Shown here: positions 53,555 through 54,873 of the stretch, piece by piece | Numbering within the stretch: the stretch's first letter is position 1 | How the letters are laid out: the number at the start of each line of letters is the position of its first letter | NCBI RefSeq assembly: GCF_947539375.1 | Contig: NZ_OX443569.1 | Location: forward strand, 1,922,001-1,986,000 | Direction: 5' to 3' | DNA from: Lactobacillus isalae | Lineage (GTDB): Bacteria > Bacillota > Bacilli > Lactobacillales > Lactobacillaceae | Length of the DNA: 64,000 bases | Notes under the pieces: generated by a model | Seen by the model: only the letters and a program-made list of their open reading frames with translations | Database searches by the model: none | Told to the model about the DNA's origin: nothing | Position numbers and translations under genes: made by a program

Positions 53555-53776
53555 TTAGAGCAAATAAACTGTTAGGTGAGACTCCTACGTGAACACATGC
53601 TGTCGCCCAGCAACATCCAGAGATGCCAACGGGTCAAACAGGGATCGTCGATATAAGGCCCTCCCCAGCCAGCTAGTTATATTTAATAACCTTACGTCAC
53701 GTAGTGTTAAAACTGAACGACGAGTATAAAAATCGCTTGGATTTGAGCCGATGCAGTTTTTGCATCGGCCTTTTTT
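53555..53776 (+). ncRNA. M-box (ykoK) magnesium riboswitch
   Basis: Hallmarks of the M-box in order: GTTAGGTGAGACTCCTACG, the GAACACATGCTGTCGCCCAG segment, CAACATCCAGAGATGCC, AACGGGTCAAACAGGG, ATAAGGCCCTCCCC and TTACGTCACG. High Mg2+ folds the aptamer and lets the terminator (53747-53776) form. It precedes the MgtA-like fragment. Boundaries are approximate. Confidence 0.93.
53747..53776 (+). terminator. Terminator of the M-box
   Basis: GCCGATGCA / TGCATCGGC with a GTTTT loop and T6. Confidence 0.95.
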
Positions 53777-53812
53777 GTTTGTTTGCTAGGTTCTTAAGAA
53801 AGGATGTTGAAA

Positions 53813-54844
53813 ATGTTAAAAATCAACACTTCCGGCACAAGACATACTACAGACACCAAGCTGGTGCGCCGGATTGCACGCGAAGATAAGTTTGCAACGC
53901 TGCAACGATTAAAAACCTCAATTAGTGGCCTACCAAGTAAAGATGCGAGGCAACGCTTAGAAAAAAATGGCCCTAATGAAATTGCAAGTAAACAAAAAAA
54001 CACAAGGTTACAATTTTTATGCGAAGCCTTTATGACTCCATTTACAATTGTGCTTTTGTGTTTGGCTGTTTTATCTATTTTAATTAATTATGGCTTAAAT
54101 ATAAGCAAGCAACATAGTTTAAATACTGCACTTTTGATCATCTTAGTTTTAGTTATTTCAGGAATTTTAAGTTTTGTTCAAAACATTAAGATTAGAACAG
54201 CAATTCAAAATCTTCTTCATAGTATATCTCCTACTACAAAAGTTATGCGCGATTGTATGCCACAAGAATTAGCAACTAAGGATTTAGTTAACGGAGACAT
54301 TATTTTGCTTCAAGCTGGTGAAGTAGTTCCAGCTGATGTGAGACTTTTGAAGAGTAACAACATTACTTGTTCAGCTACTTTCTTTACAAATGAGGGTAGC
54401 CCTATTCAAAAGAGTGAGATTAATTCTCTAAGTCAAAGAGAGACAAATAATTATTTAAACTATTCAAACATTTTGTATGCTGGTACAACAATTATTTCTG
54501 GTTCTGGCGTTGGCGTTGTTTTTGCAACTGGACAAAGAACCGTTTTTGGAAAACTAGCTCAAAATATTTCTAAAATGGAATTAAAGAAGCATGTCTTTAA
54601 TTTTGATACTAAAAATTTAACTAGAGTCTTTATTGCTTTAGCTGCAATTATTGTTCCTTTGTTTTTGGTGATTAATGGAGCAGTTCACGGTAATTGGGCT
54701 AATGCCTTAACTTTTGCTTTAGCAGTGGTTGTTGGAATAACTTCTGATGCTGTACCAGTTTCTATCACAAGTAACTTACTGAAAAGATCATTGCACAATC
54801 CGAGTAGCAATCTGATGATGAAGAAACAAAATCAATCTAACTAG
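53813..54844 (+). CDS. Truncated, catalytically degenerate MgtA-type P-type ATPase
   Basis: A 343-aa protein corresponding to the N-terminal third of an Mg2+-importing P-type ATPase (full length about 900). Present are the cytosolic lead-in (SGLPSKDARQRLEKNGPNEIA), helices M1-M2, the actuator domain (GDIILLQAGEVVPADVRLL) and M3-M4. The dephosphorylation loop TGES reads FTNEGSP (about 191-197). The M4 site reads GITSDAVPVSIT where GLTPEMLP is expected. The chain stops 10-20 residues before the DKTGT phosphorylation site. The P, N and M5-M10 parts are absent, and a terminator follows at once. It cannot pump; it is either a decaying remnant or a re-purposed membrane protein. ATG 53813 is 8 nt after AAAGGA. 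Confidence 0.85.
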   Translation: MLKINTSGTRHTTDTKLVRRIAREDKFATLQRLKTSISGLPSKDARQRLEKNGPNEIASKQKNTRLQFLCEAFMTPFTIVLLCLAVLSILINYGLNISKQHSLNTALLIILVLVISGILSFVQNIKIRTAIQNLLHSISPTTKVMRDCMPQELATKDLVNGDIILLQAGEVVPADVRLLKSNNITCSATFFTNEGSPIQKSEINSLSQRETNNYLNYSNILYAGTTIISGSGVGVVFATGQRTVFGKLAQNISKMELKKHVFNFDTKNLTRVFIALAAIIVPLFLVINGAVHGNWANALTFALAVVVGITSDAVPVSITSNLLKRSLHNPSSNLMMKKQNQSN

Positions 54845-54873
54845 GAATTTCTAGAAAAAGAAATTCCTTTTTT
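54843..54873 (+). terminator. Terminator after the MgtA-like fragment
   Basis: AGGAATTTC / GAAATTCCT with an 8-nt loop and T6. It begins inside the stop codon region of the fragment. Confidence 0.92.

Follow-up and report, generated by a model that had tools for sequence, protein, structure and literature searches.

The stretch of DNA that we analysed (the window: 64,000 nt of Lactobacillus isalae, assembly GCF_947539375.1, NZ_OX443569.1 positions 1,922,001-1,986,000; genome G000 in our set) carries a short gene that, as judged from its sequence, is a riboswitch-led pseudo-pump, real and conserved, with an ordinary origin in MgtA and an unusual fate. The explanation that we favor, at a probability of roughly 0.55, is that an MgtA lost its engine and was kept as a membrane-anchored regulator induced by Mg2+ starvation.

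The riboswitch, the short gene and its protein

The features of the locus are given below; amino acid positions use the numbering of a 346-residue protein.

53507..53535, + strand: promoter-like site TTGACT-17-TAAAGT (pattern scan; stretch conserved in relatives)
53561..53732, + strand: M-box (ykoK leader) riboswitch aptamer (RF00380, 135.5 bits, full model)
53747..53769, + strand: riboswitch terminator-like hairpin, then a T run (hairpin scan; kept in relatives)
53797..53804, + strand: ribosome-binding site AGAAAGGA (read from sequence; conserved in relatives)
53813..54844, + strand: short MgtA-derived gene, 343 codons and stop (open reading frame, Pfam, NCBIfam, purifying selection)
53813..53920, + strand: N-tail, aa 4-39 (part best conserved between short lineages)
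54035..54094, + strand: M1 helix, aa 78-97 (hydrophobicity, alignment)
54119..54178, + strand: M2 helix, aa 106-125 (hydrophobicity, alignment)
54179..54601, + strand: actuator (A) domain core, aa 126-266 (Pfam E1-E2_ATPase 141-324, alignment)
54386..54397, + strand: altered dephosphorylation loop TNEG, NGES in Lactobacillus MgtA (alignment)
54602..54676, + strand: M3 helix, aa 267-291 (hydrophobicity, alignment)
54704..54799, + strand: M4 helix, aa 301-332, PEMLP changed to SDAVP (alignment, hydrophobicity)
54843..54868, + strand: second terminator-like hairpin, overlapping the stop codon, directly after the gene (hairpin scan)

The M-box exceeded the RF00380 gathering score of 44 bits and was followed on its 3' side by a terminator as expression platform, which places it in the M-box class; Mg2+-dependent switching would be expected from this riboswitch family. 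Terminator-like hairpins numbered two, compared with 0.9 in shuffled sequences, and promoter-like pairs were not above chance (2 found, mean of 4.6 in shuffles). The stop lies at 54842-54844, and the open frame runs to it from 53804 (346 codons) or from 53813 (343 codons), the latter being the likelier start because of its better spacing from AAAGGA.

Of an MgtA-type P-ATPase, the window protein has the N-tail, M1-M4 and the actuator domain and no more. Its frame closes shortly after M4, and neither DKTGT with its phosphorylated Asp, nor the P and N domains, nor M5-M10 were present in it. The Pfam domains Cation_ATPase_N and E1-E2_ATPase scored above their cut-offs, two NCBIfam MgtA models matched only to positions 326 of 867 and 365 of 907, far under their cut-offs, and TIGR01524 gave 199.9 bits, compared with the curated cut-off of 610.75 that we took as the mark of a working pump. 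The closest solved structures were those of MgtA, with residues 17-341 matched. Instead of the ten helices of a working MgtA, the protein has four hydrophobic segments, which would be expected to insert into the membrane. In the Lactobacillus MgtA copies compared, the loop reads NGES, with TGES in one distant copy (L078); the window protein has neither form of this working-pump loop, and the Glu is still present in its TNEG by alignment with NGES. Among the short genes the aligned letters were TNEG, MDED, LGEE, TGQN, TGQA or NKAP, and by alignment the nine genomes of the johnsonii/gasseri group keep the Glu, which G067, G018 and G008 have lost; PEMLP of M4 was replaced by SDAVP, AEVMP, AGVMP or PEILS; the G008 copy lacks M3-M4 and ends before the M4 motif. 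With its catalytic parts missing, the window protein is predicted to be unable to pump.

These observations agree with an earlier note on this DNA, which had described a preserved M-box with terminator, a 343-codon MgtA N-terminal frame free of internal stops, the lack of DKTGT, P, N and M5-M10, an altered M4, and a terminator directly after the gene. The note was also right that the loop had changed to TNEG, though not in taking TGES as the starting motif.

Distribution, history and selection

We searched 75 Lactobacillus genomes with the protein and the M-box and checked the context at the fetched loci. The short gene occurred in 12 genomes, with an M-box in front in all 12, so that the search for the leader-gene pair in relatives, proposed in the earlier note, found the two together throughout. 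Eleven of these genes lie at one site, in the order trpS, comEB, TPM gene, M-box gene, metG; in the exception, G008, metG is 3.8 kb off with other genes between. Nine have 331-346 codons (G000, G070, G059, G023, G022, G033, G014, G071 and G069, of which the G069 and G070 assemblies are less complete, 79% and 71%), those of G067 and G018 have 343 codons from the homologous start, and that of G008 is shorter still (260-267). A thirteenth row labeled short in the tree, G031, is cut by a contig end and was left out of the short count. The TPM-domain protein (52916-53503 in the window) is fast-evolving, precedes the M-box gene at most of the sites that were seen, and is possibly its functional neighbor.

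A full-length MgtA with NGES and DKTGT was present at the trpS-metG site in 45 of the 75 genomes, a count that includes G031 (contig end before DKTGT), G040 (partly masked) and several genomes with one flank seen; eight rows of this intact class vary slightly after GDGIND, with AS, TP or AA for AP. Another 15 genomes have full-length, motif-altered copies at the site, each with an M-box. All 15 depart from GES (13 without the Glu) and from GDGIND, and five depart from DKTGT. The three remaining genomes are G046, which has MgtA elsewhere, and G047 and G060, incomplete genomes with no such MgtA. Because in E. coli MgtA D373N in DKTGT abolishes ATP hydrolysis and E215A in TGES lowers complementation (PMC10925321, cited here and below from parts of its text), the altered full-length copies are probably poor or dead pumps. 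Their frames are open, with low omega in the pairs tested (L144-L149, L151-L159). With a truncated or motif-altered copy in 27 of the 75 genomes, neither an M-box nor an mgtA annotation implies Mg2+ transport. Among the matches listed outside the genus in 397 genomes of the family, frames had at least 753 codons, apart from one of 410 with an internal stop. No description of the short gene was found in the accessible parts of the literature searched, mostly outside subscription journals, and literature searches on L. johnsonii MgtA and on an L. gasseri magnesium riboswitch gave no match.

The 12 short genes grouped into a single clade (support 98/93, tree built from 92 N-terminal rows) that adjoins the full-length copies at the trpS-metG site of G038, G043, G045 and G044; a smaller tree (36 of the 92 rows, with seven short rows and the longest branch omitted) gave 99/97. 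The window protein was 48-49% identical to the nearest intact copies, those of G038 and G043; MgtA was nearest by sequence, tree and site, and the ancestral gene at the trpS-metG site was a full-length MgtA. A single origin of short and altered full-length copies was rejected (p-AU 0.0005, 36 of the 92 rows, with the grouping named only after the first tree was seen). The 15 altered copies would be a lineage separate from the short genes; their own single clade was weakly supported (96/44 in the 92-row tree, 63/44 in the 36-row tree). The stems that follow truncation have long branches, 0.57 and 0.80 per site, which points to fast change before the present constraint set in.

Nei-Gojobori omega was 0.158, 0.162 and 0.120 in three separate short pairs, and the likelihood codon model (GY94) gave 0.106 for G000-G059, 0.140 for G033-G071 and 0.063 for G067-G018; omega = 1 was rejected in all three (2dlnL 158.9, 68.0 and 222.3, respectively; p < 1e-15). 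Codons 58 onward alone gave 0.056, 0.105 and 0.043 in the same order. Four full-length pairs had omega values of 0.013-0.047, below those of the short gene; because of this higher omega and the long stem branches, the short gene appears to be under weaker constraint than a full-length pump, yet far from neutral. Neutral simulation at 0.42 substitutions per site produced a mean of 8.9 in-frame stops and left the frame open in 0 of 300 runs; G033-G071 is a close pair for which the simulation alone is weak, with 2.3% of its 300 neutral runs stop-free. Catalytic residues gone from a gene under purifying selection are the marks of a pseudoenzyme, and the sequence comparisons support reading the short gene as a selected non-pump.

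Conservation of the N-tail and the 5' block

Between short lineages, identity was 61-63% in the N-tail, 39-40% in the whole protein, 42-45% in the A core, 15-16% in M2, 30% in M3 and 34% in M4. Intact pairs showed the reverse (N-tail 43%, whole 70%, M2 72%, M3 81%, M4 92%, loop 89%), and the altered full-length copies had drifted helices (whole 62%, N-tail 65%, M2 46%, M3 44%, M4 70%). These means used 8 of the 12 short, 11 of the 15 altered, 7 of the 13 separate-clade and 19 of the 45 intact rows. The ion path has thus lost its old constraint, which argues against transport or leak. The A core is not conserved above the protein average between lineages; as its identity is close to that of the whole gene, the case for a selected part rests on the N-tail, which alone stands out. 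The N-tail of E. coli MgtA runs beneath the A domain, touches that domain as well as TM2 and TM4, and has been suggested to have a regulatory role (PMC10925321). In the johnsonii/gasseri group, a 5' block with conservation at synonymous sites as well overlaps the N-tail, and the N-tail argument therefore draws on the comparisons between lineages.

That block (53504-53953) contains the promoter, M-box, terminator and the first ~50 codons, and is 95-99% identical between species of the johnsonii/gasseri group, compared with 69-87% for the TPM gene and 50-79% for the rest of the gene in pairs with different or distant alleles. GC3 is 0.42-0.52 in codons 1-52 as against 0.20-0.21 in the rest of the gene, and synonymous differences in the first 57 codons were 0.18-0.35 of those in the rest in five of five short pairs. 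Such a dip at the start of the gene was absent in trpS, comEB, the TPM gene and tatD, and present in metG, where it was strong in one pair; a similar dip occurred in two pairs of separate intact mgtA genes and was missing from most other MgtA pairs. The conserved coding part gave no sign of RNA structure (z -0.68; 52 of 200 shuffles as good). The short gene of the window is johnsonii-like (78% amino acid identity), and the TPM gene and metG are closest to those of G033 (86% and 99%; 52916-54844 compared with L075-L077); the G071 short gene is near that of G033 (dS 0.29) although its TPM gene is not (dS 1.87). Exchange of alleles between species is suggested by these relationships. Given this pattern, and given that the short gene and its neighbors point to different relatives, spread by recombination is the simplest reading of the block's conservation, with an RNA element or RNA constraint as a conceivable alternative.

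Partners, rival explanations and related systems

Of the 27 genomes that carry a short or altered copy, 17 have an intact MgtA elsewhere, compared with a second MgtA in 2 of the 45 genomes with an intact copy at the trpS-metG site (Fisher p 7e-8; the species share ancestry, so the association is weaker than the p-value), and therefore transport may have passed from the site copy to the other one. The other MgtA of G069 matches the copy of a different species exactly and could be contamination. Genome search found no intact MgtA in the window genome, G018, G003, G013, G016, G020, G036, G042 and G068, or in G070. These genomes still keep the site copy open, the altered ones with 888-920 codons; stops were flagged in some matches with a longer query and not seen with a shorter one, and probably fall where the match runs past the frame. 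G068 keeps its altered site copy even though its separate mgtA consists of an M-box and the last 47 MgtA residues, a remnant of a deleted pump gene (L160, G068:C10, 340-650). The window genome counterpart of the place occupied by the separate mgtA of G059 holds a hydrolase, a LysR-type gene (by reading) and a choloylglycine (bile salt) hydrolase (L170 1800-5078; G000:C1:740500-747500). CorA was found in 60 of 60 good genomes, with one copy in the window genome; MgtE was above cut-off in 0 of 75 genomes and was rejected as a partner.

On the explanation that we favor, the M-box-controlled MgtA at the trpS-metG site would have lost P, N and M5-M10, probably in a single event in the ancestor shared by the johnsonii/gasseri group with two other lineages, and the truncated gene would have been kept since as a non-pumping membrane protein. 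When Mg2+ is scarce the M-box, if it behaves like its family, would let transcription through, and the cell would make a four-segment protein whose helices serve mainly as an anchor; the cytosolic N-tail and, less clearly, the actuator domain would be the selected parts, and the N-tail would bind a partner in Mg2+ homeostasis, intact MgtA where present and CorA or another protein where absent. We infer both the regulatory role and the partner, and because the window genome has no intact MgtA we prefer a partner that is not, or not only, MgtA. The wider proposal, that at least twice at this riboswitch site a pump became a pseudo-pump, with a selected N-tail, acting as an MgtA-independent regulator induced by Mg2+ starvation, is more tentative, and we would put it somewhat below an even chance. 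Against a regulator, the interface reported for the E. coli MgtA dimer is located in two domains, N and P (PMC10925321), that are missing here, the available text of a later preprint did not observe the dimer (PMC13174805), and 10 of the 27 genomes have no intact MgtA. The earlier note's re-purposed Mg2+-regulated membrane protein fits 12 of 75 genomes with an M-box and strong purifying selection; its example, a modulator of another transporter, is a candidate role, and the window genome offers it no intact MgtA as a target.

A dedicated partner of intact MgtA, which would bind the pump and inhibit, stabilize or tune it in the way that small membrane proteins like MgtS act in E. coli, would account for 17 of 27 against 2 of 45 genomes, and the contacts of the E. 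coli N-tail with the A domain, TM2 and TM4 (PMC10925321) speak for it. We nevertheless hold it unlikely, because the gene is kept in the nine genomes without intact MgtA (G070, with its 71% complete assembly, would be another), omega is 0.063 between G018, which has no intact MgtA, and G067, which has one, and the genome counts share ancestry. We give distinctly less credence to the idea that what is selected is the 5' part (the leader plus the first ~50 codons), acting as an RNA element or a nascent peptide, with the rest carried along. Such a product would suit the near identity of 53504-53953 amid far more divergent flanks and the synonymous dip in all five short pairs; codons 58 onward, however, are themselves under purifying selection (omega 0.043-0.105), folding of the coding part does not surpass that of shuffled sequences, a comparable dip appears in two pairs of intact mgtA from these species, and recombination would account for the pattern too.

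The window protein retains four hydrophobic segments, and truncated human SERCA1 has been described as a leak; both points would suit M1-M4 acting as a passive channel or leak for Mg2+. Such a leak is nonetheless improbable, as M2 and M4 have lost their sequence constraint, the G008 copy is without M3-M4, and TM5, 7 and 8, where Mg2+ site I is found in E. coli MgtA (PMC10925321), are all missing here. The altered loop and M4 motif and the long stem branches could be taken for a decaying pseudogene, or the short frame for an assembly deletion, and we find either very hard to credit given 12 genomes, an open frame, a kept leader and omega far under 1: decay is ruled out by omega and the neutral simulation, and an artefact of sequencing or assembly, which the earlier note had allowed for, by the short gene with M-box in 12 genomes. 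The recent deletion that it also considered is excluded by the same 12 of 75 genomes, one clade under strong purifying selection; of its picture of plain decay, the full-length orthologue at the site exists, as the ancestral form, but omega is 0.06-0.14 and not near 1. The frame stops at the natural boundary that separates M4 from the P domain, which would suit half of a split pump with its C-terminal half encoded elsewhere. This too is barely believable, since downstream of the short gene there was no remnant, only weak tblastn matches to the lost pump part (best E 0.012), and among the best 12 of 15 window genome matches, those reaching the C-terminal part lay in frames of 642-938 codons that also matched the N-terminal part.

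By site, sequence and M-box the short gene is like the MgtA/MgtB P-type ATPases (TIGR01524), and its N-tail, M1-M4 and A domain are recognizable; it differs from them in having no DKTGT, P, N or M5-M10, in its altered loop and M4 motif, and in conservation that has moved from the helices to the N-tail. In enterobacteria, the small membrane proteins MgtS and MgtR bind MgtA or act on it and transport nothing themselves (PMC10925321, PMC13174805, the latter also cited from parts of its text). The Lactobacillus protein would likewise sit in the membrane, but MgtS has only 31 residues, and for the Lactobacillus protein an action on MgtA is a proposal. To our knowledge neither MgtS nor MgtR is derived from the pump. 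Truncated human SERCA1 (S1T) is a P-type pump that keeps its N-terminal helices and cannot pump; it is a splice form of one gene, whereas in Lactobacillus the short form has a gene and a riboswitch to itself, and its helices are under little constraint. Another related class is that of pseudoenzymes, in which catalytic motifs are lost and the gene is kept (PMC10211241, from parts of its text); they are well known in other enzyme classes, and the accessible parts of the literature searched gave no case of an inactive, truncated, split or pseudo P-type ATPase. If the short gene regulates the Mg2+ economy of the cell, nature has separated the regulatory N-terminal part of a pump from its engine.
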